From a virus, in the IMG/VR virus record IMGVR_UViG_3300023116_006663, positions 1 to 21,738 of that record: DNA of 21,738 nt. One strand, given 5' to 3'. Positions 660 through 12,896 of this stretch are shown here, piece by piece. The position numbers and the translations under genes are program-made. The stretch's first letter is position 1, and the number at the start of each line of letters is the position of its first letter. The notes under the pieces are model-generated. The model saw only the letters and a list, made by a program, of their open reading frames with translations. It was not told the DNA's origin and made no database searches.

Positions 660-1635
660 TATATTCTTTAGGAATTTTACTGTCTGCACTCGACACACAA
701 CTATCAGTTACACATTTTCCTGCTGTTGTAAATATATTAAAATCTTCATAAATTTTTCCTATTGGCTTATCTGCACAACTATAAGATCTTTTTATTTCAT
801 CTTCCCGTATTATTATACTTTGAAATCCTGCATTGCAATTCCATCCTTTAAATTTATTAAATTTAAATGCATTTAATCTTTCTGCTTGATCAAGGTAATA
901 AACATTATTATTATTATCGTACAATTCTACCTGTAATAGTTCTACACCTTTCCATTTTTGAGGGAATCCTGTTTTTAAAATTTTTATTTGATCATCTGTG
1001 TACTCATTAACAATAAATTTTGCAGTAGGATCACTCTGTGGTTTTAAAGTTACATTTATTCCAGCATTTTTAAACCTTACACATCTTTCATACAATAAAT
1101 CAAATCTACTAGGTACCATTACTTGATTTATTGTGATAAAAATATCATGTTCTTGTAAAAACAAACATTTTTTTATAAATTCATCCTCGTCTGCAAATTC
1201 ATCATGATAACTTGCTGTAATACTTTTTCGAGATAATTTACTTACTTTTTTGACCCATTTATTCCACCATTTTAATGAAGGTGATAAATTAGTTGTCATA
1301 TGTATACTTTGATAATCAACATTATCTTTTGCATATATATCAATTAATTTCAATAAATGCAAATAAGCAGTAGGTTCGCCTCCACTAAAGCTAAAATGGA
1401 ATTTTTGAAAACCATTTTTTCTTGCTTGATCTTTAATTCTTACAATTGCATTTTCATAAACAGAAAAATTTAAAAAAGCAGTAGTGCTTGATCTTGCATA
1501 AGGCCAACAATACGTACAATTATAATTACAAAATCTATCTATAATCCAAGAAACTGTAAACAAATCTTTATGTAATAATGTAGATTGTCCTAGCTTAACA
1601 ATTTTATGAAAAGGAATATTTTGAAAATCTCTCAT
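649..1635 (-). CDS. Radical SAM enzyme with SPASM-like C-terminal cysteines
   Basis: The protein has 328 residues. The radical SAM cluster motif CxxxCxxC is at Cys36, Cys40 and Cys43, and the SAM-binding GGEP motif is at 85-88. Four further cysteines (267, 287, 308, 313) lie in the last 65 residues, spaced as expected for an auxiliary iron-sulphur cluster of the SPASM/twitch type. Such enzymes make a 5'-deoxyadenosyl radical; SPASM members often modify peptides, but some act on sugars or cofactors, so the substrate is open. It is the last gene of the leftward operon. It starts within the end of the preceding glycosyltransferase gene (32-base overlap) and lacks a clear Shine-Dalgarno sequence, so translational coupling is likely. 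Its architecture differs from the other radical SAM protein here (11490-12896), so the two are not simple duplicates. Confidence 0.88.
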   Translation of the reverse strand: MRDFQNIPFHKIVKLGQSTLLHKDLFTVSWIIDRFCNYNCTYCWPYARSSTTAFLNFSVYENAIVRIKDQARKNGFQKFHFSFSGGEPTAYLHLLKLIDIYAKDNVDYQSIHMTTNLSPSLKWWNKWVKKVSKLSRKSITASYHDEFADEDEFIKKCLFLQEHDIFITINQVMVPSRFDLLYERCVRFKNAGINVTLKPQSDPTAKFIVNEYTDDQIKILKTGFPQKWKGVELLQVELYDNNNNVYYLDQAERLNAFKFNKFKGWNCNAGFQSIIIREDEIKRSYSCADKPIGKIYEDFNIFTTAGKCVTDSCVSSADSKIPKEYITK

Positions 1636-3298
1636 GTAACCATTGAAAATTATTAATTAATTTTAACTTTTCTATATCATTTTTGTTTTTTTGTCCATAA
1701 TCTCTACCATCTTTAGCTCCTAAGATACAATAATTTCCATATTTTTTAATTGCACCTTCTGTACACCAAATATTTAATCTATGTTCCCGTTCTTCTTCAG
1801 CTTTTTTAGAATCTTCTACAGATATAAACACATCTTTTGATTGGTTTTTTTCTATAACACTAGAACTTAATTTACAACATTCTCTAAAAGCACTCTTCCA
1901 AGTATTAAAAGGATCTGTATTAAATTTTGTAATATTAGACACAGATTTCATAGGTTTAAATCTATTTGAAATAGATGTTGTCATATCAGTGCTATCTTTT
2001 TTCATGTTAATTGTTAAAATTCTTGGGAATAATTTAACTCCACCATATCCATACACTAAATCATTTATTGGATTTTTTGATGCCCAAACATGCACGGTTT
2101 GCCTGTCCCAAATATCAACAAAATATTCTAGTGTAAAATCTTCTAAAAGCATTGCATCTGCATCAATAAACCAAACCATATCTGATTTAGCTAACTTTGC
2201 TCCTGCTATATGTGCCTCATGTATTCCTTTAATTCCGTGTATGCGTATTGCTTCTGGATATTTTTGTTTCAAAATCTCAAAATTTTCATCTGCATTTTTT
2301 TCATTATAACTGACAAATACTACATCATAAACTTTATGTTTTGATGCAATTATTTGCCATTTTTTGCAAGATACTATGTGTCTAAAATCTATTTCATTTT
2401 TTGCTACTTTTTTGTGTTTACTAAGTAAAAAAATTCCATTATACAACTCTTCATTATTACATAAATTTACAAAAGCATGATTTTCGTGCCTATTATAGAT
2501 ATCATTATGATTAAAATACGTCTTCATAATATCTTTATCTATTACTGTGACTTGCTTTGATGTGCTCCAAAACATTTCTGTTTTAGATTTTGTTAAAGCG
2601 TAGTTGTAATCTTCAAAATTATTAATTTCAAATATATCATATTCAACGGACGTAGACGCACAAATTTCCCATTCTTTCCTGCTAACAATATGTCTATACT
2701 CTACTTCCTTTTTTGTTAGTAATTTATTTTTACTTAATAAAAATAAACCGTTGTAAAATACATCATCTCCTACTAGATGTTGAAATACATGATTTTCTTG
2801 TCTGTTATAACTATCATGATGACTAAAATAAAAATTTAAATCAAAATTTTTACATATCTTTATATTACTACTTGTTGCCCAAAACATTTCTGTACTAGAT
2901 TTTTTAAGAGCATGTTCGTAATCCTCCCATGTTTCAATACAAAAAATATCAAATCGTTTAGGATGTGTAACTTTTCTTTCAATTTTTTTGTGCTCAATAA
3001 AAAAACGATGATTAACTTCTTTTTCGGTTACTTGTTTACCTTTTGGTACAAGTGCTAAACCATCGTAATTTTTATCATTTAAAAATACATGAATATATTT
3101 TTCGTCATATTCATTTATTTTCAATCTAAATATTTCATAATCTAAAATTACCAAATCATCATAAACTGTCCAAAACATTTTAGTATTATTTTTTAAAACA
3201 GCTTCTTGAAAATTGTGTACTAACTTTGTGGTGGGAATAAGATCTTTTAACTTTTGATATTCTGTTAAATTTTTGCCTATATAAAAAACATCATACAT
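1604..3298 (-). CDS. Triple-repeat protein fused to a GT-A glycosyltransferase
   Basis: The protein has 564 residues in two parts. Residues about 2-320 are three copies of a roughly 105-residue unit. Each copy has a KMFW/EMFW core (40-43, 137-140, 241-244) and ends in a Y-(D/N)-G-hydrophobic stretch followed by a charged K-E-V/I-(N/E/D)-(H/Y/F)-R motif. Residues about 324-564 are a GT-A-type glycosyltransferase: a VSYNE opening strand, an HG-x-KG-x3-AH motif, and a DAD metal-binding triplet at 379-381. This half is clearly related to the 304-residue protein at 12909-13823, down to the YGYGG and GA-K/R-D/E-G motifs. The repeat unit is not one I can name; it could bind an acceptor glycan or protein. 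The first copy is the most diverged. No Shine-Dalgarno is apparent. The end overlaps the radical SAM gene, suggesting coupled expression. Confidence 0.82.
   Translation of the reverse strand: MYDVFYIGKNLTEYQKLKDLIPTTKLVHNFQEAVLKNNTKMFWTVYDDLVILDYEIFRLKINEYDEKYIHVFLNDKNYDGLALVPKGKQVTEKEVNHRFFIEHKKIERKVTHPKRFDIFCIETWEDYEHALKKSSTEMFWATSSNIKICKNFDLNFYFSHHDSYNRQENHVFQHLVGDDVFYNGLFLLSKNKLLTKKEVEYRHIVSRKEWEICASTSVEYDIFEINNFEDYNYALTKSKTEMFWSTSKQVTVIDKDIMKTYFNHNDIYNRHENHAFVNLCNNEELYNGIFLLSKHKKVAKNEIDFRHIVSCKKWQIIASKHKVYDVVFVSYNEKNADENFEILKQKYPEAIRIHGIKGIHEAHIAGAKLAKSDMVWFIDADAMLLEDFTLEYFVDIWDRQTVHVWASKNPINDLVYGYGGVKLFPRILTINMKKDSTDMTTSISNRFKPMKSVSNITKFNTDPFNTWKSAFRECCKLSSSVIEKNQSKDVFISVEDSKKAEEEREHRLNIWCTEGAIKKYGNYCILGAKDGRDYGQKNKNDIEKLKLINNFQWLHERFSKYSFS
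2339..3295 (-). repeat. Three tandem coding repeats in the N-terminal half of the glycosyltransferase
   Basis: The three units cover roughly 2975-3295 (residues 2-108), 2645-2953 (116-218) and 2339-2641 (220-320). Units two and three are closest: both carry EMFW, a Y-F-x-H-x-D-x-YNR-x-ENH segment and an R-H-I-V-S segment. Unit one keeps MFW, the YDG segment and the K-E-V-N-H-R end but has lost the ENH segment. The relationship is clear at protein level, while the DNA has diverged, so the duplications are not recent. Confidence 0.8.
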
Positions 3299-3307
3299 AA
3301 AAAATTA

Positions 3308-3832
3308 TTAAATATATAATTCTGGATATTCGACCAATAAGTGTATACCTTTATATTCATAAGCATCCTTATAACTTTGAAAAATTTTATCAGGTCCATC
3401 TAAATCTACAAAATTTATATTTTTACACAACGACTTAAATTCTTGTAAATAATTTCCTTTATGCTGGACTCCTGGATCTAATGGGGTATCAGCACCTTTG
3501 CCTACTCTAATGATCATACCAACAGTTTTATTAGTCATTAAACTAAATTTATCAACATGATTTACTAGTTGATTGGATGCGCTTAATAAAAAATCCCATC
3601 TAGGATAAAAGCTAATTACAAACTGTCCTGCTACTGCTAATCCTAATCCTAGCCCCATTTGTATTTCTTCAAAAACAGGAGTTTCTATCATTTTGTCTTT
3701 AGAAACATTTACTAAAGTAGTGCTCATAGGATTACCTTTGAACACAATTTGTTGTCCAACAAATATAGTATCGTCCTTTTCTCCTAAATATGTCATTGCA
3801 TTAATTAATTCTTGTTTATAAAGTGTTTCCAT
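3308..3832 (-). CDS. E1-beta-like ThDP enzyme subunit, pyrimidine-binding domain only
   Basis: The 174-residue protein matches the N-terminal (pyrimidine-binding) domain of 2-oxoacid dehydrogenase E1 beta subunits. Visible marks are an ETPVFEE segment whose Glu55 sits where the catalytic, ThDP-activating glutamate lies, a small-residue helix (GLGLGLAVAG, 60-69) and the FLLSASNQLVNHVDK stretch (81-95). Full E1 beta subunits have roughly 325 residues; the C-terminal transketolase-type domain is absent. The matching alpha half is the protein at 8191-8820, five genes upstream; ThDP sites in this family form between alpha and beta, so the two probably work together. No lipoyl-domain or E2 gene is visible, which argues against an ordinary dehydrogenase complex. 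The gene overlaps the preceding SGNH gene by 17 bases. The domain call is firm; the reaction is unknown. Confidence 0.83.
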   Translation of the reverse strand: METLYKQELINAMTYLGEKDDTIFVGQQIVFKGNPMSTTLVNVSKDKMIETPVFEEIQMGLGLGLAVAGQFVISFYPRWDFLLSASNQLVNHVDKFSLMTNKTVGMIIRVGKGADTPLDPGVQHKGNYLQEFKSLCKNINFVDLDGPDKIFQSYKDAYEYKGIHLLVEYPELYI

Positions 3833-4625
3833 TTTCTGTATCCATTTTTGTAAATCGTCTTCTTATTTTATCCCAATCTCTTGCTTGCTGCCGTTGATTT
3901 AAAAATTGACATTCTTGAGTAGTTACTTGCTGTAATTTTTTAGACGCATCTGTATAATATTCTGGAAAATTGCGTTCAATAAATCTAAACTGACTAGTGT
4001 AGTTTGGATGTCCGTCTACTGTTCCGTCTTTATATTGTATTGCTACTTCTTGATATATTTTATGTTCTATAAGCCAACTTTCTAAACTAGTATCTAAATC
4101 ACAAATTTCGTAAACTTGTTTCATTTTGTTTATAGATTTTATGCTATTAGTTAGATCTCTACCATGTTCATGTGAGTTACGCTGCAAGTAATGACTATTG
4201 TCAATTCCCATCAAAATTTTATGTTTTACTTTCTTAGATTCAAGAATAGATTTCATAGCTAAAACAGCCGTCCAAGTTTGGTGTACAGCAAAAGTTTCGT
4301 TATAGATGTCTTTTATAAAATTACGCATCGGAGTCCTGTTATTCTTTGCAACATAATTAATTAGATCTCCATCATAATTCCAATTTTCGTTGTTATCACA
4401 ATAACTAAATCTAAAAACACCAGTTAACATAATATATACAGTATCATTTTGATCTAAACCAAATCTATTATCTATTTCAACTAATTTTTCTAGCATATGT
4501 AGATTTGATCCACCAGTTCTGCCTATATTTCTGTATTCTTTAAAATTAATACCTATGAAGTCTGCCCATGTAGGATAGTTCCAATTTGTAAAACTACATC
4601 CAAATGCAAAAAATCTATCATTCAT
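3816..4625 (-). CDS. SGNH-type hydrolase or acyltransferase (first of three)
   Basis: The protein has 269 residues. FGCSFT at 8-13 gives the block I nucleophile, Ser11. TGGSN at 38-42 can supply the oxyanion glycine. DGHP at 204-207 supplies the Asp/His end of the triad. The usual block III asparagine is not obvious; the region reads MLTGVFRF. No signal peptide or membrane segment is seen, so it should act in the cytoplasm of the infected cell. SGNH enzymes add or remove O-acyl groups on sugars or lipids; in a glycan operon, O-acetyl esterase or transferase is the reasonable guess. A Shine-Dalgarno AGAGG precedes the start, which overlaps the end of another SGNH gene by 8 bases. It is related to the proteins at 4618-5454 and 8813-9535, but all three are highly diverged. 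Confidence 0.78.
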   Translation of the reverse strand: MNDRFFAFGCSFTNWNYPTWADFIGINFKEYRNIGRTGGSNLHMLEKLVEIDNRFGLDQNDTVYIMLTGVFRFSYCDNNENWNYDGDLINYVAKNNRTPMRNFIKDIYNETFAVHQTWTAVLAMKSILESKKVKHKILMGIDNSHYLQRNSHEHGRDLTNSIKSINKMKQVYEICDLDTSLESWLIEHKIYQEVAIQYKDGTVDGHPNYTSQFRFIERNFPEYYTDASKKLQQVTTQECQFLNQRQQARDWDKIRRRFTKMDTENGNTL

Positions 4626-5454
4626 TTAAACCTCTGATATTTATATAATTTATAATATTTTCTGCCATAACTTTATGGCATAATAAACTAGGATGACTAT
4701 CAGTAGGAGTTATATCAAAGTTGTCGTAATCGGCATGTATACAAAGTTCTTGGTTATCCTCCATCATACGTTCAATACTATTATAAGCAGAGCTTTTATA
4801 ACGCATTGATATGTATCGAGATCTTAGCCAATCATCATTCCTACAATATTGTACATTTGTTGCAGGCCATGTAAATATTGCTGTTTTTATTCCAATATCT
4901 TCTAAACGGCTCATAAACTGTCTTACACTAGTGAGACTACGAATAGTATACCATTCTACATATTTTTCTATAGTAGGTATCTTATTTTTTTTCATCCAAC
5001 TTCTGAGATATCTTCTATTTTCTGGTTCTAAGGCATCGCAATACGTCATTACCTGTTTTTTTCCTATACTAAAAGTACATCTATGAGGCTGTGTTAGCTG
5101 AAATATTACAAATTGAATGTCATTAGCATCTATATTAGGCACGTGTATATCATCAACATTTCCACCGTTTTTAAAAATTGCACAATCCCAAAATTTTATG
5201 ATACTTTCGTGTGACCCTCCACATGCAGGATGAACCAATTCAAAACTATTAAAATAATTAGCTACTAGACGAGGATATCTTAAAGATTTAGCGAATTCTA
5301 TATGTGTGTAATGTAAAATTTCCGGCTTATAAGTATTCAATGGTTGCTCTTTTACTGAAGACATTCCACTATAATAATACAATCCTTGGCCCCAAGTAAA
5401 TGAACATCCAGCAAACAAAAAACCTTTTATAATTTTATCTTTTTTTAGTTTCAT
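4618..5454 (-). CDS. SGNH-type hydrolase or acyltransferase (second of three)
   Basis: The protein has 278 residues. AGCSFTWGQG at 15-24 gives the nucleophile Ser18. HPACGGSHES at 75-84 corresponds to block II with its glycine and serine. FQLTQPHR at 118-125 lies where block III is expected, and TDSHP at 251-255 gives the catalytic Asp/His pair. There is no signal peptide, so a cytoplasmic role is expected. It lies directly upstream of another SGNH gene with an ATGAATGA overlap and 7 bases downstream of the small unknown gene at 5462-5881. As with its neighbours, the likely substrate is an acyl group on a sugar or lipid carrier. Similar proteins in marine phages and bacteria are usually annotated as hypothetical or GDSL-like, so the fold is well supported but the substrate is not. 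Confidence 0.78.
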   Translation of the reverse strand: MKLKKDKIIKGFLFAGCSFTWGQGLYYYSGMSSVKEQPLNTYKPEILHYTHIEFAKSLRYPRLVANYFNSFELVHPACGGSHESIIKFWDCAIFKNGGNVDDIHVPNIDANDIQFVIFQLTQPHRCTFSIGKKQVMTYCDALEPENRRYLRSWMKKNKIPTIEKYVEWYTIRSLTSVRQFMSRLEDIGIKTAIFTWPATNVQYCRNDDWLRSRYISMRYKSSAYNSIERMMEDNQELCIHADYDNFDITPTDSHPSLLCHKVMAENIINYINIRGLNE

Positions 5455-5461
5455 GTTTTAT

Positions 5462-5881
5462 TTAATCCGGCCAGCTGATTTCCCAATCTTTAAAATCAGC
5501 TGCTAAACAATCTACTTTATAATCTTTTCTACCCCCTATAATTTCTTGTATTATATTTTTACTAGTATTTCTTATTCCATTCAACCCATGAGTTAGTTCT
5601 AAGTTACCTTCTTTTTCTCCTTTACGAAATTTTGATTCGTTGTGCCAAATATGTAAATTCATTTGAGAACATACAATGATAGCTCTAATTGTTTTAGCAT
5701 CTACTACTGCATTATTTTCATCTAATATAATCTGTATGTCATGGACTATATCCTCAATTTCTTGCGAGTATTCATCTTTGTATTCTGTAATAAAAACTTC
5801 TTTAAGTTGTACAATACTTAAACGATCAATTAACTCACTAAGGGTTTGCAAATATCGTCTTTCTCTTTTTTGTTGTGTCAT
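5462..5881 (-). CDS. Small conserved-looking protein of unknown function
   Basis: The protein has 139 residues, is charged and probably mostly helical, and has no signal peptide or transmembrane segment. The segment LSELIDRLSIVQLK (14-27) weakly recalls the start of DUF4254-type proteins, which also sit in bacterial glycan clusters; I would not assign it on that basis. The middle has a helix ending in NLHIWHNESKFRKG, and the C-terminus is acidic and tryptophan-rich (DWEISWPD). Its ATG overlaps the stop of the NAD-dependent epimerase gene as ATGA, so it is likely translated by coupling and belongs to the same unit. It may be an accessory partner of a neighbouring enzyme, but nothing in the sequence shows this. 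Confidence 0.72.
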   Translation of the reverse strand: MTQQKRERRYLQTLSELIDRLSIVQLKEVFITEYKDEYSQEIEDIVHDIQIILDENNAVVDAKTIRAIIVCSQMNLHIWHNESKFRKGEKEGNLELTHGLNGIRNTSKNIIQEIIGGRKDYKVDCLAADFKDWEISWPD

Positions 5882-6813
5882 AAGTTTGTAAAACTCCTAT
5901 TATTATAAGTAATTATAACGCTGTATGCATTTATTAACTGTGTTATTCCATAATCTAAATCATATTTTGGATGAAAACCTATTGATTCAATTTTTTCATT
6001 ACTGACTATATAATTTCTTTTATCAAAATCTTGTCTAAACTCATCTTGTTTTATAACAAGACTAGGAAGATGTTTTTTAATTTTTTCAGCTAATTCTATC
6101 TTACTTAAATTAGCAGTTGATAGTCCTACATTAAATGCTTCCCCAAAACACTTGTCATAATTTTCTATTACAAATTCAAATACTCTTGCTATATCTTGTA
6201 CATGAATATAATTTCTCTTAAAGTTAGATTCAAATAAAACCAAATAACCATCTGTAACTGCTTTATATACAAAATCATTAACCAAAAGGTCTTGACGCAT
6301 TCTAGTTCCTATACCAAATACTGTAGCCAATCTTAATGCTACACCTTTTGCTGCTATGACTACATCTTCTGCATCACATTTTGTTTTAGCATATAAACTC
6401 AATGGTATAAAAGGACTGTTTTCTGTGATAATTTCTTCGCTAGATCCATACTGACTGTTTGTATTAGGCATTATAAGTTTTTGATGGCTTTTTAATACCC
6501 TTACAATATTTACTATTTGCCTATAATTTACATCTATGCTAAGATTAGGATTTACTTCACAAGCTGACATCCCTACAATAGCAGCCAAAGGTATAATAAC
6601 ATCGTGTTCTTTTACTAAATTTTGCAAAAGCTCAACATTTCTTACATCGTCTTTTACAAAATTAAATTTATTATATTTAAATAGGTGCAATAAACTTAAT
6701 TGTTTATACATTAAATTATCTAATACTGTTACACTGTACCCTTTACTAAGGAGATGTTCAGAAATAGTTGATCCTAGATATCCTGCACCACCTGTAATTA
6801 AAACCTTAGTCAT
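5878..6813 (-). CDS. NAD-dependent sugar epimerase/dehydratase (extended SDR)
   Basis: The protein has 311 residues, the normal length for extended short-chain dehydrogenases that act on nucleotide sugars. The dinucleotide motif GGAGYLG is at 8-14. An aspartate at 32, after the second strand, favours NAD over NADP. DDVRN (55-59) and LAAIVG (76-81) are standard cofactor contacts. YAKTK (141-145) is the catalytic YxxxK, preceded by an NTNSQYG stretch. RNYIHVQDIAR (200-210) is the conserved substrate-side motif of UDP-, dTDP- and GDP-sugar enzymes. It could be a 4-epimerase, 4,6-dehydratase or reductase; no residue seen here decides. Together with the RmlC-like enzyme at 9532-10077 it points to synthesis of a modified deoxy or epimerised sugar. 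The start overlaps the upstream gene as ATGACTAA. Confidence 0.9.
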   Translation of the reverse strand: MTKVLITGGAGYLGSTISEHLLSKGYSVTVLDNLMYKQLSLLHLFKYNKFNFVKDDVRNVELLQNLVKEHDVIIPLAAIVGMSACEVNPNLSIDVNYRQIVNIVRVLKSHQKLIMPNTNSQYGSSEEIITENSPFIPLSLYAKTKCDAEDVVIAAKGVALRLATVFGIGTRMRQDLLVNDFVYKAVTDGYLVLFESNFKRNYIHVQDIARVFEFVIENYDKCFGEAFNVGLSTANLSKIELAEKIKKHLPSLVIKQDEFRQDFDKRNYIVSNEKIESIGFHPKYDLDYGITQLINAYSVIITYNNRSFTNL

Positions 6814-8206
6814 AATAAAACCTTTTTAAATCATTCCAAGTATCTTTAAATGGACTTATGTCTTTTAGTGTATATAAATGTTTTTGATTGTGTACTAAAA
6901 TATCAGTAATACTATAATACCAATCATGTAACTCTTGTATCGGCATATCATTTAATTTTTTAATTTCATTAAATATACGCTCATAACGTATTTCTATACT
7001 AGTAAAATTGTCGTAAGTTTCGTTTATAAAAGGATGGAATGTTTTAAATCCTAAATCTTTTAAATATTGCAAACTATATGCACTATTTAACAAAATAAAC
7101 GGCTGTAAATTACTAATTGGTCTCCATGTTTTTTCTGATATAAATGTGTCTACATTTGCATCAAATTTAGTCTCAGTAATTATATTGACATACGAATTTA
7201 AAAAATGTTTTTTATTAGTATTATCAATTGTAAAACTGCCTTTGTCTTTTAAATGCTGTGTTTCTAATTCATACGGAATTATCTCAAAAAGGCTTTTTGC
7301 ATAGTGATCAGGGTTAGTTTCATTCGGAAAGTGTTGCTTTATACAATTCTTAAAATGCTCTACGTCGTTATTGGCATCCAAATTAAGGAACGTAAAAATA
7401 TTATTATCTAACAAGTTTAATTTAATTGCAACATATGCCATTGCAATTCTATGCGGACGCATCATCCTGTTAAAACAAATAAATCTATTTTCTCTAATAT
7501 TGTTTGAATCTAGATCATCTTCGCGTACTAAGTCTGAGATATAACCTAAACTAGTATGTTTAGGATAATATGTTGCATTAGTTGCTACTTGTTGAGAAAT
7601 CATCAGTGTTGCATCAGTAAGTTTTATACCGCATTTCGGACTGTGTTTTTTATATTCGCTATATTTGTTTCCAGCAATAAAAATCAGATTTTTGCTCGGC
7701 ACATTATACCGGTTAAAGTCACTTTGCATTATGTCAAGATCAATTGTATTGTTTAAAGGATCTTGAGCTTGATTAAAAACTATCTTTACTGTTCCGTATT
7801 GCAATAATTTTTTAGTCTTCTCAGACAAAGTATCTATTAATTTATAAGAATGTTGACGGCCATCTATTTGAACGCATAGTTTTTGATATGTAGTATTTGG
7901 AGATGTTCTTATTTCTATAGGATAGAAATACTCGTTACCGTACACAACTTCATCTAATGAACAGAAATTTTGCACACCTTTATCTTTAAGAAAGTAGCCA
8001 TTCAAATTACAATGATTAAAAACAAATACATCACCTGATACTCTTGCAGACACAACTTTTTGCGCTTCGCTCAATGTCATTGTTGTTCCGTTAAGTAATT
8101 CTAATAACTGATCAACAATTTTTTTATGCAATCCATTAGGTAAGGGATATCGTATTCCCTCTTGTACAAACCAATTTTCATAAACAAATTTCAAAATACC
8201 ACCCAT
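6806..8206 (-). CDS. Large putative GT-B-like phage protein, SEKT family
   Basis: The protein has 466 residues. The N-terminal 240 residues have no motif I recognise. The second half begins with ICFNRMMRPHR (243-253), continues through ITETKF (342-347), FISEKTWRPI (355-364) and LGFKTF with INETYD (385-399), and ends in a helical tail. The same order occurs in the proteins at 10074-11477 and 3-659, so this is a three-member family in the window. The E-x-F, S-E-K-T, P-x-P-F order is reminiscent of GT-B transferases such as fucosyltransferases; glycosyltransferase activity is inference from this and from the operon. The ATG start overlaps the E1-alpha-like gene by 16 bases with AGGGA close by; a TTG four codons in is an alternative start. 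It ends 8 bases inside the epimerase gene. Confidence 0.75.
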   Translation of the reverse strand: MGGILKFVYENWFVQEGIRYPLPNGLHKKIVDQLLELLNGTTMTLSEAQKVVSARVSGDVFVFNHCNLNGYFLKDKGVQNFCSLDEVVYGNEYFYPIEIRTSPNTTYQKLCVQIDGRQHSYKLIDTLSEKTKKLLQYGTVKIVFNQAQDPLNNTIDLDIMQSDFNRYNVPSKNLIFIAGNKYSEYKKHSPKCGIKLTDATLMISQQVATNATYYPKHTSLGYISDLVREDDLDSNNIRENRFICFNRMMRPHRIAMAYVAIKLNLLDNNIFTFLNLDANNDVEHFKNCIKQHFPNETNPDHYAKSLFEIIPYELETQHLKDKGSFTIDNTNKKHFLNSYVNIITETKFDANVDTFISEKTWRPISNLQPFILLNSAYSLQYLKDLGFKTFHPFINETYDNFTSIEIRYERIFNEIKKLNDMPIQELHDWYYSITDILVHNQKHLYTLKDISPFKDTWNDLKRFYYD

Positions 8207-8820
8207 TTCCCTGTACCATAATGAGGATATTTCGATTGATAAGTATAATGAATTATGTCCTCTGGAATAGACGATGTTTTATTCCACGTATGCTTTGTAG
8301 GTGTGTTAGTAGAAAGACCGTTATCTTCTACAATAAAATATATAGGCAAATCAAAATTCCTAGAATATTTATGTACTTCATAAAAAATACCCGATTCATA
8401 GCACATGTCTCCTACAAAACACCAAACTTTATCATTATATCCATTACGTTTTATAGATGCAGCTACTCCTAAAGCAATAGACAAACCACCTCCTACAATT
8501 GCAGAACTATAAAATTTTTCATCAATATTACAAATAGTTATACTTTTACCTTTTAAAATTTCATCTTCTAACCAATTTTGATCTATTCCTTTTAATAATG
8601 CATGATAATGATTTCTCCATGTAGAAAACACCCAATCAGATTTTTTTATCCGCTGGAAAATTTCAATTAATTCTATTTCATTGCCATTTGACAAATGCAC
8701 AGGTCCTCTTATTTTACCTGATTCCCAATGTATAACAATTTTATTTTCAAAATCAATTAAATCATTCTTATCATACTCTATATGCCTTACTATTGGATAT
8801 TTTTCTAAATTTTTAATCAT
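8191..8820 (-). CDS. E1-alpha-like ThDP enzyme subunit, minimal form
   Basis: The 209-residue protein resembles the core of E1 alpha subunits of 2-oxoacid dehydrogenases. STWRNHYHALLKGI (66-79) aligns with the family's arginine/histidine-rich substrate-side loop. SSAIVGGGLSIALGVA (105-120) is the cofactor-domain helix. GDM at 137-139 through Asn167 in VEDN has the length of the ThDP/Mg motif (GD, about 28 residues, N). Normal E1 alpha subunits have about 330-370 residues, so this one lacks the N-terminal extension and much of the C-terminal phosphorylation-loop region. The probable partner is the E1-beta-like protein at 3308-3832. The two would form one complete ThDP site between them. Both gene ends overlap their neighbours (8 and 16 bases). 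Alternatives are a split decarboxylase or transketolase-like enzyme, but the motifs fit E1 best. Confidence 0.83.
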   Translation of the reverse strand: MIKNLEKYPIVRHIEYDKNDLIDFENKIVIHWESGKIRGPVHLSNGNEIELIEIFQRIKKSDWVFSTWRNHYHALLKGIDQNWLEDEILKGKSITICNIDEKFYSSAIVGGGLSIALGVAASIKRNGYNDKVWCFVGDMCYESGIFYEVHKYSRNFDLPIYFIVEDNGLSTNTPTKHTWNKTSSIPEDIIHYTYQSKYPHYGTGKWVVF

Positions 8821-9535
8821 ACTTACCTTTTAAATGTTCTATAATTCTATTTGCGATTACTTCATGCCCTTCTACAGAAAAATGTTGGTTATTTACAGGA
8901 AAATTAGGTAAATCTAGTAACCTTAATTTTTGATTTGCGATAAATTGCGATAAATCTGTTCCGTCAAATGTTAGTATAGTTTTTGAACTTTTTAAAGTAT
9001 CGCCTGTTTCATACATCAACCAAACTACATTAATATTTTTTGATTGCAAATATTTTGTATGAACCTCAATATTTTGCAAAAGATTTCTGTATTCTATTTC
9101 TTTATCATAAAAATGCCGCAAATACATTTCATAATATTTTTTAGCATAATCTAGTATTCTTTCAAAATTGCTAATTGTTAAAAATTTTTCTTGTTTAATA
9201 TCATATACCATAATTCTTGACAAAAGTGTAGTTTGTACAGTTACAAGCAAATCACTTCCATTTTCTACGTTTTGAGTTTTTTCATATAATTTTTTAAAAA
9301 TTAAACTGTTTGACGATCCAGATACAGCAAAATTATCAAAATCACAATTAAGATTTCTTGCAAGATACGCCGGATAAGAATTATTATACATATAATCTCT
9401 ATATATAGTCTCTAATTCTAAATTATTTTTATTACCTAAATTACTAGATAAATATTGATGATAATATGGAGTTTCAAGACCATTACCTTCAGTAAAGCTA
9501 CATCCAAAAGACAATATCTTTTTATATATTTTCAT
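8813..9535 (-). CDS. SGNH-type hydrolase or acyltransferase (third of three)
   Basis: I place the start at 9535, giving 240 residues. A further in-frame codon at 9574 would overlap the RmlC-like gene by 43 bases, whereas the ATG at 9535 overlaps its stop as ATGA and has AGAGAG upstream. FGCSFTEGNGL (10-20) carries the nucleophile Ser13. FAVSGSSNS (69-77) fits block II, and HFSVEGHEVIA (218-228) gives the catalytic His224 at the expected place, about 17 residues from the C-terminus. The aspartate normally three residues before the histidine is replaced by serine (SVEGH), so the acidic partner is unclear. No signal peptide is present. It is distinct from the other two SGNH proteins, which suggests separate acyl positions or substrates rather than redundancy. 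Confidence 0.8.
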   Translation of the reverse strand: MKIYKKILSFGCSFTEGNGLETPYYHQYLSSNLGNKNNLELETIYRDYMYNNSYPAYLARNLNCDFDNFAVSGSSNSLIFKKLYEKTQNVENGSDLLVTVQTTLLSRIMVYDIKQEKFLTISNFERILDYAKKYYEMYLRHFYDKEIEYRNLLQNIEVHTKYLQSKNINVVWLMYETGDTLKSSKTILTFDGTDLSQFIANQKLRLLDLPNFPVNNQHFSVEGHEVIANRIIEHLKGKYD

Positions 9536-10077
9536 ATATCTCTCTTTTGTAATATAGGGCAATCTGTAGGCCACTCAATTTCATATTGAGGATCGTTCCA
9601 TTTAATAACGCTTTGTTTATTTTCGTCTACATAATCTCCATTATAAAACATAGTGTAATGAAAAATACAATCCGACAATGCAAAATGACCGTTTGCGAAC
9701 CCAGGAGGTATCAAAACTTGATCTCGTAATTTATCGTTAATTACATATGATTCCCATTTTCCGAACGTAGAGCTATCGGCCCTAACATCTAAAACAACCA
9801 AGTAAATATCTCCTACGATAGCCTGCACTAATTTATAAGTTTTATTATCATAATGCAACCCTCTTAGAACATTTTTATAAGATTTAGAAAATCTGCTATG
9901 TATATTTGAATTAATTGTTACAAAATTATTTACAGGATGATATGTAGAATGATATGTAGTAAATATTTGCCCTCTGTATTCGTGATATACACTAGGAGTA
10001 AAAATAGGAATCTCTTTATCAAAAGTAGTTAGATAACTTATATCAAACTCATTCCATTTTTTCTTTTTGTAATTCAT
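9532..10077 (-). CDS. RmlC-like dTDP-4-keto-sugar 3,5-epimerase
   Basis: The protein has 181 residues, the standard length for RmlC cupins. The family signature is nearly complete: LRGLHYD (71-77) with the catalytic-base position at His75, YKLVQAIVGDIYLVVLDVR (81-99), STFGKWES (103-110), IPPGFANGH (123-131), a tyrosine at 141 near the usual acid position, and KWNDP near 159-163 leading into EIEWP and PILQKRD. RmlC enzymes epimerise C3 and C5 of a dTDP-4-keto-6-deoxy sugar; relatives epimerise only one carbon. RmlA, RmlB and RmlD are not in the window, so the substrate would come from the host or from genes elsewhere. The family call is firm; exact specificity is not. The ATG overlaps the upstream gene's stop as ATGA. 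Confidence 0.9.
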   Translation of the reverse strand: MNYKKKKWNEFDISYLTTFDKEIPIFTPSVYHEYRGQIFTTYHSTYHPVNNFVTINSNIHSRFSKSYKNVLRGLHYDNKTYKLVQAIVGDIYLVVLDVRADSSTFGKWESYVINDKLRDQVLIPPGFANGHFALSDCIFHYTMFYNGDYVDENKQSVIKWNDPQYEIEWPTDCPILQKRDI

Positions 10078-11477
10078 GTATTTTCTATTTTACTTTGCAA
10101 AAAATTTAGCATTTCTAAATTCAATTTTTCACTATCATTAAAATTAATTAATACTTTATAATTATGTTCGTATATTTCATACATTGACCAATACATTTTT
10201 TCTATTTCATCTATAGGCAATGCAGCTAACCTTTCTATTTCATTTAATATCGCCCTGAATCTATGACTTTCATTTTCAATCGAATCATAAGATTCGTTAA
10301 TATAAGGATGAAAGGTTTTAAATCCTAATTTGTGTAACATTTTTAAAGCACCGGGAAACGCTATAAAAATAAATGGCATAAAATGTGCAATCGGTTTAAA
10401 AACTTTTTCAGTAAGAGATTTATGCTCTCCATGAGTAAATGTCTCTGAACATATATATATGTAACTTTGATTGTAAGAAATAGGTGCCTCGTTTGGCCAA
10501 TCTGCAACACTATCTACTGTAGATCTAGGCTCATAATGCAAATTTTTTGGTAAAATCTTATGCAAAGCTAAAATTTTATCATGATTTAATTGTGTATTAA
10601 ATTTATCTGCCATCCACGACAATGTACCTACATCAAACACATTTGGATTCAAACAAGACCAATCTATCTTGTGGAGTAAATTTTTTGTTGTAAAAGCAGC
10701 AAGAAAAAACAATCTATGTTGTCTTGGTGATCTAACCTTAAATAAAAAATAGTATTTCCTTTGTACCTTTTTCAATTTTCTAACATCATTAACTGGTTTT
10801 GTCGAATAAGTAAAACTAGACTGACATATTACAAAAGGAAAATTAAAAACTTTTAACCGTTGTCTTTCAGGAGCAAACCATTTTTCGTATAATGATTTAC
10901 CATTGAAAGTATTAAAACCGAGTACAATTTGATCTGCAGGTATATTACATCCACGTAAAGAATTATGTAACTTTTCATATGTAAGTTTATCTATAAAATT
11001 TTCCTGCCCATAATCTAAAAATATAACACATTTTCTATTTTGAACATCTTCTAAGACCTGTTTAGATATATATTTCCAAAAAAATTCTCCACTTAATTTA
11101 GTGTTTAAATCATAACCAGAAAAATCTTCTATATGAGGAGACATTTTTATAGGATATATATATTTTTCGTTATGTCTTTTACAATCATATACAGATTTTT
11201 CTATAATTTTTACTTTTTTATAATATGAATTTGCTAATATATTACTGTGATTAGTGCTGTTAGGCCAATGTCCTTTTTGGTTGCGAAATAGAAACTGATG
11301 AATTTTTAAATAATCTGTTTCCATATTCGGAGAAGTTAAAGCTTGATCAGATCTTGTAGCTACATGCTGGCTATACATATAATTTAAATGAAATAATTCT
11401 GGCCACAAAGCATTTGGCACAAAAAAATTAGGAAAAACATAATCATAACCAAATATTAATTTGTGTGTATTAGACAT
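10074..11477 (-). CDS. Large putative GT-B-like phage protein, SEKT family
   Basis: The protein has 467 residues, almost exactly the length of the paralogue at 6806-8206. Shared landmarks are KVRSPRQHR (247-255), an arginine-rich segment preceding a helix, then SETF (344-347), LTEKVFKPI (355-363), LGFKTF (384-389) and PYINESYD (391-398). The central VIFLDYGQENF segment looks like a Rossmann-type strand and loop. N-terminal halves of the paralogues share little, so acceptor specificity may differ. No signal peptide is present. Only 12 bases separate it from the radical SAM gene upstream, and no Shine-Dalgarno is evident. Glycosyltransferase is my inference from motif order and context; an unrelated phage-specific enzyme is possible. 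Confidence 0.75.
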   Translation of the reverse strand: MSNTHKLIFGYDYVFPNFFVPNALWPELFHLNYMYSQHVATRSDQALTSPNMETDYLKIHQFLFRNQKGHWPNSTNHSNILANSYYKKVKIIEKSVYDCKRHNEKYIYPIKMSPHIEDFSGYDLNTKLSGEFFWKYISKQVLEDVQNRKCVIFLDYGQENFIDKLTYEKLHNSLRGCNIPADQIVLGFNTFNGKSLYEKWFAPERQRLKVFNFPFVICQSSFTYSTKPVNDVRKLKKVQRKYYFLFKVRSPRQHRLFFLAAFTTKNLLHKIDWSCLNPNVFDVGTLSWMADKFNTQLNHDKILALHKILPKNLHYEPRSTVDSVADWPNEAPISYNQSYIYICSETFTHGEHKSLTEKVFKPIAHFMPFIFIAFPGALKMLHKLGFKTFHPYINESYDSIENESHRFRAILNEIERLAALPIDEIEKMYWSMYEIYEHNYKVLINFNDSEKLNLEMLNFLQSKIENT

Positions 11478-11489
11478 ATTTTTATTTAT

Positions 11490-12896
11490 CTATAAAAAAG
11501 TTCCACAATGTTTATAAAATTCTTCCATTTGTGGAAATGTTTGAACAAAGTTTGTGTTTCTTCGTTTGTCGTGCTCATCTACGAATAATCGAAAATTTTT
11601 CCTATTGTAATCATTATATGCTTCATTCTCTTTTTTAGGATGGGTCAATACCATTTCGTAAATTCTTTTCATCCTTTCTGCTTCGTGTTCATGAAATCCC
11701 ATCATTGCGCTACCTTGCCAATTCTTATTTTCTAGATTAGTATAGATAAATGTTACTTGATCATAAACATCTTTAACAAAATCTTCAGTTAAAATAAAAA
11801 CAGATTGATGTGTAGGATATCTTAAATAAGGTATATCTAACAATACAGGTGATGATGTATAAAATTTAGGATTCCAGTATTCTTTTTTTAATCTTACAAC
11901 ATCTTTTAAAAAATCAATATAGCTTGGAATACTTAGTGCATTATAAGTACTCATAATTGTAAAACCTAAACCTGGAACTTCTTTTAACATTTTTTCTATA
12001 TTAGACAACCATAAATTATAATCTAAACCAAATCTAATATATTCTGCTTGATTACCATGCGCTTCGCAACTGGTAAAAACTTTAAATTTTTTAACTTTCT
12101 TTTCATTAATTATTATTTTAACTTTTTCTATAAATTTATTTAATAAATCAGTTGGAGGACACATATTAGCATTGATACTTAAATTTAAATTTGGATTAGG
12201 ATTTTCAATTATATAATCCAAAAATTTATAAGTTTCTTTATTCAATAATGGTTCTCCTCCAGTTATTCTAAAATGTTCAACTTTATTAGCTATATCAGGC
12301 CACCATTTCCAAAATGCATCTATATATGGATTTTTATCTTTATAAGGTATTGGCAATGTGTTTTGCTTTTTAAGTGTATCAATATTATTAAAACTATCAG
12401 CTGTAGGATATGCACCATAAGCTTCAATTTCTTCCATCCATTTACTACTGATATGAGGAGCGCAGTAACTACATTTAAAGTTACATACATTTCCAAAACT
12501 TACTTCTAAATACGAAGGTACTTCATCTACATCCCAAGGTTTATTTTTTATATCATCGATATATGGTGCCGACCATGTATCAGCAGTTTTAAAAACTCTA
12601 TCGCTTATACTATCGCTGTTATTATCTTCTACCCGCCAACAATAATCACATTCTGGAGGTCTTTCTCCTTCTAGCATCATTTTCCGCAACATTTTCTTAT
12701 GCTTAGTATTATGCAAAGCACTTGGATTTTCTTTTAATTCGTCTAACGGAACTTTATGTGTTACAGGATGATGGCAACTGTGAGTGTGACCATTCTGTAA
12801 ATGAATTGTGACTTGTTTCCATTTTGCTGCACAAAAAGTAGGACTAATTTTGTCCATTACATCATATTTGAATTTGACTAGATTTTCTAATCCCAA
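11490..12896 (-). CDS. Radical SAM enzyme with N-terminal twitch-type cysteine domain
   Basis: The protein has 468 residues. The radical SAM core has CxxxCxxC at Cys138, Cys142 and Cys145 and TGGEP at 212-216. Before it, FCAAKW, SCHHP and ECDYCW supply Cys22, Cys41, Cys83 and Cys86, a set matching the N-terminal twitch domain of the family called twitch domain-containing radical SAM protein. These would ligate an auxiliary iron-sulphur cluster placed before the core rather than after it. Members are common in marine phages and in glycan or peptide-modification clusters, but their reaction is not known to me. The start is TTG, chosen because AAGGAG sits 8 bases upstream while the next in-frame ATG (codon 14) has no such site. 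It follows a glycosyltransferase gene. Confidence 0.87.
   Translation of the reverse strand: MGLENLVKFKYDVMDKISPTFCAAKWKQVTIHLQNGHTHSCHHPVTHKVPLDELKENPSALHNTKHKKMLRKMMLEGERPPECDYCWRVEDNNSDSISDRVFKTADTWSAPYIDDIKNKPWDVDEVPSYLEVSFGNVCNFKCSYCAPHISSKWMEEIEAYGAYPTADSFNNIDTLKKQNTLPIPYKDKNPYIDAFWKWWPDIANKVEHFRITGGEPLLNKETYKFLDYIIENPNPNLNLSINANMCPPTDLLNKFIEKVKIIINEKKVKKFKVFTSCEAHGNQAEYIRFGLDYNLWLSNIEKMLKEVPGLGFTIMSTYNALSIPSYIDFLKDVVRLKKEYWNPKFYTSSPVLLDIPYLRYPTHQSVFILTEDFVKDVYDQVTFIYTNLENKNWQGSAMMGFHEHEAERMKRIYEMVLTHPKKENEAYNDYNRKNFRLFVDEHDKRRNTNFVQTFPQMEEFYKHCGTFL

Follow-up and report, generated by a model that had tools for sequence, protein, structure and literature searches.

What are two small proteins, each resembling one half of a 2-oxo acid dehydrogenase E1 component, doing together in a viral operon? 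The question is raised by IMG/VR record IMGVR_UViG_3300023116_006663, of which positions 1 to 21,738 were analysed (this whole stretch of 21,738 nucleotides is called the window). An initial annotation, made from the letters alone, had described there an E1 alpha-like and a beta-like protein that lie in one operon, separated by five genes; it had read them as a split minimal E1 enzyme forming one thiamine diphosphate (ThDP) site and, by comparison with avilamycin biosynthesis, as a possible source of a branched-chain sugar. Our analysis indicates that alpha and beta very probably join as one ThDP-dependent enzyme. Sequence, co-occurrence and modelling support a two-chain enzyme without a transketolase C-terminal (TKC) domain and without an E2 partner, and homology together with co-occurrence strongly suggests that the pathway is a modification of GDP-heptose at the 4-keto stage. 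That the enzyme is a carboligase which adds a two-carbon unit to the ketone of GDP-4-keto-heptose, yielding a GDP-activated 4-C-branched heptose, is moderately probable.

An open reading frame (ORF) check recovered both genes at the positions and sizes given initially, on the minus strand and with five ORFs between them (Table 1). The alpha ORF shares 16 bp with the next gene and the beta ORF 17 bp with the preceding one; throughout this gene-dense region, adjacent genes have short overlaps of a few bases or almost no gap between them, so that a single transcription unit is likely, as had been proposed. A scan of the window for promoters and terminators gave results at chance level. The alpha protein matches Pfam E1_dh (7.5e-14) at profile positions 6-172 of 300 and ends about 30 residues beyond this match, and the beta protein matches Transket_pyr weakly (1.3e-3); a TPP_enzyme_C match in the same scan of the pair lay below the cut-off. 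In PHROG 34187, a profile of 405 positions, alpha covers positions 2-198 (1.5e-50) and beta positions 237-398 (2.7e-19). The top PDB matches of the alpha family profile are human pyruvate dehydrogenase (PDH) E1-alpha (3.5e-16), and the beta family profile matches PDH E1-beta (5e-9). An AlphaFold2 model of the window beta (pLDDT 94) was matched by Foldseek to the first ~180 of the ~330 residues of E1-beta (TM 0.86-0.87; TMt 0.45-0.49). Since the model covers just the pyrimidine (Pyr) part of E1-beta, the C-terminal TKC domain is absent, and the loss of the remainder of the usual E1 subunits is borne out by this match for beta and by the partial E1_dh match for alpha.

The residues of a ThDP site are distributed over the two chains. 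In 79 aligned sequences, G137, D138 and N167 of alpha and E55, H124, R109 and R78 of beta are conserved in 100%, and R69 and H71 of alpha in 98%. The stretch from G137-D138 to N167 gives alpha the GDX(25-30)N motif of the diphosphate/Mg (PP) domain of the ThDP superfamily, and E55 gives beta the catalytic glutamate of the Pyr domain. The alpha motif had been noted as GD137-N167; G137-D138...D166-N167 is indeed present, the aspartate being residue 138 and not 137. The assignment of Glu55 as the pyrimidine-side glutamate stands: it is invariant in the relatives, and Glu55 and His124 align with a conserved Glu and His of human E1-beta which are active-site residues there. R78 lies in a P-R-W-(D/N)-F motif; the arginine is kept in fused (E-R-H-D-F) and bacterial forms, is replaced by Thr in human E1-beta, and appears from the alignment to be a signature of the family. 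Judged by their conservation, alpha and beta are both real, constrained genes.

Viral contigs yielded 126 alpha and 102 beta relatives, and the best 80 of each were searched for the partner. Beta is present in the record for 77 of the 80 alpha loci and alpha for 59 of the 80 beta loci; the partner is missing from the remainder because the contigs end: in three cases the end lies between 31 bp and 4.7 kb downstream from alpha, and in 21 it lies upstream of beta by no more than 6.2 kb. Both halves were found in every sufficiently long viral contig, on one strand and 0-12 kb apart. A family in which one half always occurs without the other in other phages was looked for, and co-occurrence proved unbroken; each apparent case of a lone half was a contig end or had its partner in a whole-record search. 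The nonredundant pairs share a strand in 77 of 77 cases, with alpha first in 73, a median gap of 5.1 kb and adjacent or overlapping halves in three; the intervening genes vary between loci, and in one phage contig (L274) alpha and beta are directly adjacent. A single chain of ~400 residues with both domains occurs in the cyanophages S-SM2 and P-TIM68 and in about 60 further nonredundant loci, and the AlphaFold model of one natural fusion (L188) reached a pLDDT of 92.6 and a pTM of 0.93. Alpha and beta distances are correlated (Mantel r 0.63, against at most 0.17 in shuffles), a value confounded by shared genome history and given little weight. Natural fusions, unbroken co-occurrence and invariant cofactor residues on both chains support the initial reading of one ThDP site made by two chains, and the halves of the split pair would share a ThDP pocket. 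On this reading, the same enzyme would occur split, dispersed in one operon, and fused.

Two unusual beta ORFs were also observed. In L050 (8021-9826, plus strand), a 602-aa ORF that overlaps the end of alpha fuses beta with a C-terminal half whose relatives in the window are the glycosyltransferase-like proteins 102-659 and 6806-8206. In L055 (16771-17556, plus strand), beta residues 31-173 are in frame with the C-terminal part of an Fcl-like short-chain dehydrogenase/reductase (SDR), either a real fusion or an artefact of deletion or assembly.

The similarity to PDH E1 could be taken to mean that the pair is a truncated E1 feeding a host E2, that is, an auxiliary metabolic gene of 2-oxo acid dehydrogenase, or an inactive relic of such an enzyme. 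Either is very improbable. The pair lacks the beta TKC domain of a 2-oxo acid dehydrogenase E1, with the whole C-terminal half of beta and the C-terminal part of alpha missing, and its neighbours in phages and bacteria are sugar-nucleotide genes. A partner E2 was not found either: a search for the E2 core domain (2-oxoacid_dh, PF00198) was positive in 10 of 14 control genomes and in none of 13 related viral records (51-276 kb), so that the lack of an E2 noted initially holds in these relatives as well. An E1 working with a host E2 was rejected on the missing E2 core and the missing beta domain, and a relic or pseudogene because all cofactor residues are invariant.

The neighbouring genes point to the substrate. 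They were counted in 95 nonredundant split loci, many of which are incomplete at contig ends. The best PDB match of the window SDR is 6vo6 (E 7.9e-85 over residues 3-301, 299 residues; next best 1.7e-20), an entry labelled 'putative sugar-nucleotide epimerase/dehydratase' which we take to be Cj1427, the C4-dehydrogenase of GDP-heptose modification in Campylobacter jejuni. The protein shares 46% identity over 300 aa with the SDR of a bacterial cassette (L303), a TNSGYG/TNSQYG motif is found in 68 of 68 Cj1427-like SDRs, and membership of the Cj1427-type GDP-heptose C4-dehydrogenase subfamily is probable. A 4,6-dehydratase was rejected, as TNSQYG is without the acidic pair of dehydratases and the best match is of the C4-dehydrogenase type. 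Four of the top eight PDB matches of the RmlC-like protein are named GDP-D-glycero-4-keto-D-lyxo-heptose 3- or 3,5-epimerases (1e-36 to 2e-34); the best ordinary dTDP-rhamnose RmlC reached 2e-22, and that identity was discarded. The split loci contain a Cj1427-like SDR in 68 of 95 cases, an Fcl-like SDR of the C4-reductase type in 82, at least one of the two in 90 and the epimerase in 70; they are predicted to join a ThDP enzyme to the three activities known from C. jejuni, C4-dehydrogenase, epimerase and C4-reductase.

Sampling of about 1,190 whole bacterial genomes from two phyla gave few close relatives, namely two phage-looking contigs of metagenome-assembled genomes and four loci of Pseudomonadota (L295, L303, L304, L305), two of which lie on contigs of 5.4 and 5.47 Mb. 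Alpha and beta are separate, adjacent genes in all four (the alpha of L304 is counted from a sequence match), and a fusion suggested by read-through matches in L303 and L305 was dismissed. The four loci share an HddC-like guanylyltransferase, a Cj1427-like SDR, a DegT-family enzyme and a B12-type radical S-adenosylmethionine (SAM) protein in varying order; three have an HddA-like kinase, three an Fcl-like SDR, and single loci GmhA or GmhB. The DegT-family enzyme of L303 is nearest ColD (3e-49) and keeps the active-site His-His, with His in place of the pyridoxal 5'-phosphate lysine, and the bacterial enzyme is predicted to be a ColD-type pyridoxamine 5'-phosphate 3-dehydrase. L295 adjoins a flagellin gene and GT41-type transferases and can be read from its genes as a flagellin-glycan island. 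An intermediate arrangement is seen in phage contig L274, which has a DegT enzyme whose lysine position is occupied by His, the 139-aa protein of the window, an HldE-like kinase and a Cj1427-like SDR. A plasmid search returned ordinary E1-alpha only, at less than 34% identity among the matches listed. The sugar role first read from the SDR and the RmlC-like protein is strengthened by the closeness of both to GDP-heptose enzymes and by the four bacterial GDP-heptose loci, and the idea of a branched-chain sugar is sharpened to a GDP-heptose pathway, its branched product remaining a proposal.

In the mechanism that we propose, the SDR would oxidise C4 of a GDP-heptose and the epimerase would adjust C3/C5. 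Alpha and beta would assemble, probably as alpha2beta2, into a minimal enzyme of the E1/transketolase superfamily in which D138 and N167 of alpha hold ThDP-Mg, Glu55 of beta activates the cofactor, and His124 of beta with His71 and Arg69 of alpha line the active site. This enzyme would decarboxylate a 2-oxo acid, pyruvate being the simplest, and pass the resulting two-carbon acyl group on to the ketone at C4, so that a branched nine-carbon sugar is formed; the GDP-activated 4-C-branched heptose would then be used by a reductase and by nearby glycosyltransferases. In a broader and more tentative form, the pair may represent a new class of carboligases, minimal, two-chain and E1-type, that is widespread among large phages infecting aquatic bacteria and also occurs in some flagellin or glycan islands of Pseudomonadota; with these enzymes, a two-carbon unit placed on GDP-4-keto-heptose would yield a branched nine-carbon sugar that decorates phage or host surfaces.

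The main rival to this scheme is a minimal transketolase feeding heptose synthesis, which would move a two-carbon ketol between sugar phosphates, for example to form the heptose precursor sedoheptulose 7-phosphate, upstream of the nucleotide sugar. Its attraction lies in the fused branch, where the best Foldseek matches of the L188 model over both domains are transketolases (TMq 0.60-0.70, rmsd 10-12 A; DXS ~0.35), where the cyanophage proteins bear the annotation 'transketolase central region', and where a cassette with an HldE-like kinase, a nucleotidyltransferase and a phosphoheptose isomerase gene fits the supply of heptose phosphate. By sequence, however, both halves are nearest the E1 subunits of PDH or branched-chain 2-oxo acid dehydrogenase, and the PP-Pyr-TKC architecture of transketolases is incomplete in a pair that has no TKC. 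The split loci pair with enzymes of GDP-4-keto-heptose and not of sugar phosphates, GmhA was not found above the cut-off in the 13 large related records, and the hosts are expected to own a transketolase; we consider this rival unlikely. More doubtful still is that the same carboligase uses another acceptor, a ketone or aldehyde such as that of a sugar phosphate earlier in the pathway or, following the proposals for avilamycin and paulomycin, of the sugar once it has been joined to the glycan, or another donor, such as 2-oxoglutarate or a different 2-oxo acid. For paulomycin, addition of the branch has been proposed to come later than the glycosyl transfer step (PMC4425429), 2-oxoglutarate is already used in the pathway since Cj1427 consumes it (PMC10680097), the genes between the halves vary, and sequence cannot reveal the donor; yet nucleotide-sugar enzymes are the tightest neighbours common to the split phage and bacterial loci.

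Several observations weigh against carboligation on GDP-4-keto-heptose. The fused model is structurally nearest transketolase and not E1, and the genes around the fused form make up another cassette, of the HldE type: among 61 nonredundant loci, all 61 have an HldE-type kinase and 60 have a zinc alcohol dehydrogenase upstream. The substrate may therefore differ between the branches, or the chemistry may precede the nucleotide sugar; a single reaction is not proposed for all members of the family, and the fused branch may use another substrate. In addition, the window and most split loci are without a 3-dehydrase, the alpha proteins of L295 and L303 have GEM...N, with Glu in place of the phage D138 (GDM), and 6vo6, equated here with Cj1427, is labelled only 'putative sugar-nucleotide epimerase/dehydratase'.

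The cyanophage cassette of L001, L002 and about 60 fused loci is invariant and consists of the zinc alcohol dehydrogenase, the fused ThDP protein and a short PfkB/HldE-like kinase of 243 aa, followed in many loci by an HldD-like SDR and a CTP-transferase. The S-SM2 and P-TIM68 protein, annotated as 'transketolase central region-containing protein' (PHROG 34187), is of the same family and has both halves; it differs from the window pair in being one chain and in its alcohol dehydrogenase/HldE-type cassette, and is 38-43% identical to alpha and 28-32% to beta.

Known systems share parts of this design. The alpha2beta2 E1 of pyruvate or branched-chain 2-oxo acid dehydrogenase, which provides the nearest PDB sequences, has the same PP domain with G-D...N on alpha and the same Pyr domain with the catalytic Glu and aligned His on beta, whereas the phage pair is without the beta C-terminal domain, has a shortened alpha and sugar-nucleotide neighbours, and was found without an E2. 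YerE, a single flavoprotein of the acetolactate-synthase type whose step follows a 3-dehydrase, is comparable in that the bacterial alpha/beta pair also adjoins a 3-dehydrase, and it differs as one flavoprotein from two small E1-like chains; a YerE-type FAD-binding middle domain was not found in the pair (Pfam: E1_dh, Transket_pyr). In yersiniose synthesis, the C4 acetyl branch is installed by YerE, a single flavoprotein that uses ThDP (PMC4753412). AviB1/AviB2 of avilamycin and Pau11/Pau12 of paulomycin are likewise E1-like alpha/beta pairs of sugar pathways, for which attachment of a two-carbon branch from pyruvate to a 4-keto sugar has been proposed (PMC4425429, PMC4753412). Pau11/Pau12, from actinobacterial antibiotics, are full-size (325/345 aa, PMC4425429) against 209/174 aa in the phage pair and are set apart here by size, so that the likeness to AviB1/AviB2 drawn initially is one of proposed function and not of architecture.

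In the split-gene transketolase ChTK of Carboxydothermus hydrogenoformans, PP and Pyr are encoded by separate genes and the enzyme is active only as alpha2beta2 (PMC7661550); it keeps a C-terminal domain (ChTK-C residues 164-312), which the phage beta does not have. Minimal two-subunit ThDP decarboxylases of the sulfopyruvate decarboxylase type (AzcB/AzcC, PDB 9u8q) also consist of a small PP and a small Pyr protein without a third domain. The window beta model matches chain E of 9u8q (169 aa) with a TMt of 0.68 but at 11% identity only, far weaker than the E1-beta match, and the chemistry is different. The window SDR and epimerase are nearest the solved enzyme kinds of the C. jejuni GDP-heptose modification (C4-dehydrogenase Cj1427, epimerase Cj1430, reductase Cj1428), to which the ThDP pair is an addition; the main paper on that pathway contains no match to 'thiamin' or 'branched'. 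Cj1427 carries out a 2-oxoglutarate-driven ping-pong oxidation of GDP-heptose at C4 (PMC10680097), and a C3-dehydratase of C. jejuni converts GDP-4-keto-heptoses in vitro (PMC10440746, PMC10680097). As GDP-4-keto-heptose can itself be made enzymatically in vitro (PMC10680097), the key test of the carboligase is feasible.

Split ThDP enzymes (transketolase, PMC7661550; E1), minimal two-subunit forms (9u8q) and two-carbon branching (AviB1/B2 type, YerE) are already known. In the open-access literature we found no paper on the phage pair or on a pathway combining heptose and thiamine, nor the combination of E1-type sequence, single-domain subunits, halves dispersed in an operon, GDP-heptose context and phage carriage. 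The proposal offers a concrete substrate class, GDP-4-keto-heptose, for PHROG 34187, which is annotated as 'unknown function', links phage glycan genes to a bacterial flagellin-glycan island, and points to phage synthesis of unusual, branched higher-carbon sugars, possibly including one not yet described. A working pair would show that E1-type catalysis is possible without the C-terminal domain and without E2, and its two small genes would provide a biocatalyst that forms C-C bonds on nucleotide sugars.

Table 1 Features of the probable ThDP operon in the window, in the order of transcription
Feature	Position	Strand	Length (aa)	Remarks
RmlC-like, probable GDP-4-keto-heptose C3 or C3/C5 epimerase	9532-10077	-	181	PDB matches
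GDSL-like hydrolase directly upstream of alpha	8813-9574	-	253	Pfam Lipase_GDSL 0.0019, below cut-off
Alpha-like subunit, ThDP diphosphate/Mg (PP) domain	8191-8820	-	209	G137 D138, N167, R69, H71
Glycosyltransferase-like protein between halves	6806-8206	-	466	No significant Pfam match; function suggested by context; relatives in 77/95 split loci
SDR, probable GDP-heptose C4-dehydrogenase (Cj1427 type)	5878-6813	-	311	Motif TNSQYG; PDB and bacterial match
Protein of no assigned function	5462-5881	-	139	Relatives in 33/95 split loci; in L274 beside HldE-like kinase
SGNH/GDSL-like protein between halves	4618-5454	-	278	No Pfam match; fold suggested by GCSFT-type start; relatives in 30/95 split loci
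SGNH/GDSL-like protein between halves	3816-4625	-	269	Putative fold; relatives in 14/95 split loci
Beta-like subunit, pyrimidine (Pyr) domain	3308-3832	-	174	E55, H124, R78, R109; without transketolase C-terminal domain

Further genes of these loci deserve mention. The products of 102-659 and 10074-11477 are related to the glycosyltransferase-like protein that separates the halves, all three having in common a C-terminal domain with a TFHPFINE.YD-type motif; proteins of this group are very common in the loci and gave no significant Pfam match where tested, and the group is probably an undescribed phage glycosyltransferase family. The 564-aa protein encoded at 1604-3298 has, by eye, a region of ~95 residues repeated in tandem ahead of a GT2-like domain. 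Two radical SAM proteins (649-1635 and 11490-12896) belong to the same operon, the second being of the 'twitch' type (NCBIfam NF033640, 3e-101). The 139-aa protein often accompanies a Cj1427-like SDR, and its copy in L274 (11073-11486) is up to 79% identical to those of split loci. Carbamoyltransferase genes occur in 15 split loci (e.g. L102:1444-2958), and others have 2OG-Fe(II) or PhyH-type oxygenases and methyltransferases; all are further sugar-tailoring genes. HddA-like kinases were found in 5 of the 13 large related records, far from the pair in both records checked, and some large relatives have Bacteroidota-looking genes. In the large related phages L306-L308, about 90-110 kb separate the ThDP pair from an HddA-like GHMP kinase, which has GroEL and a TonB-linked-type protein in its vicinity; the TonB-linked-type protein suggests Bacteroidota hosts.

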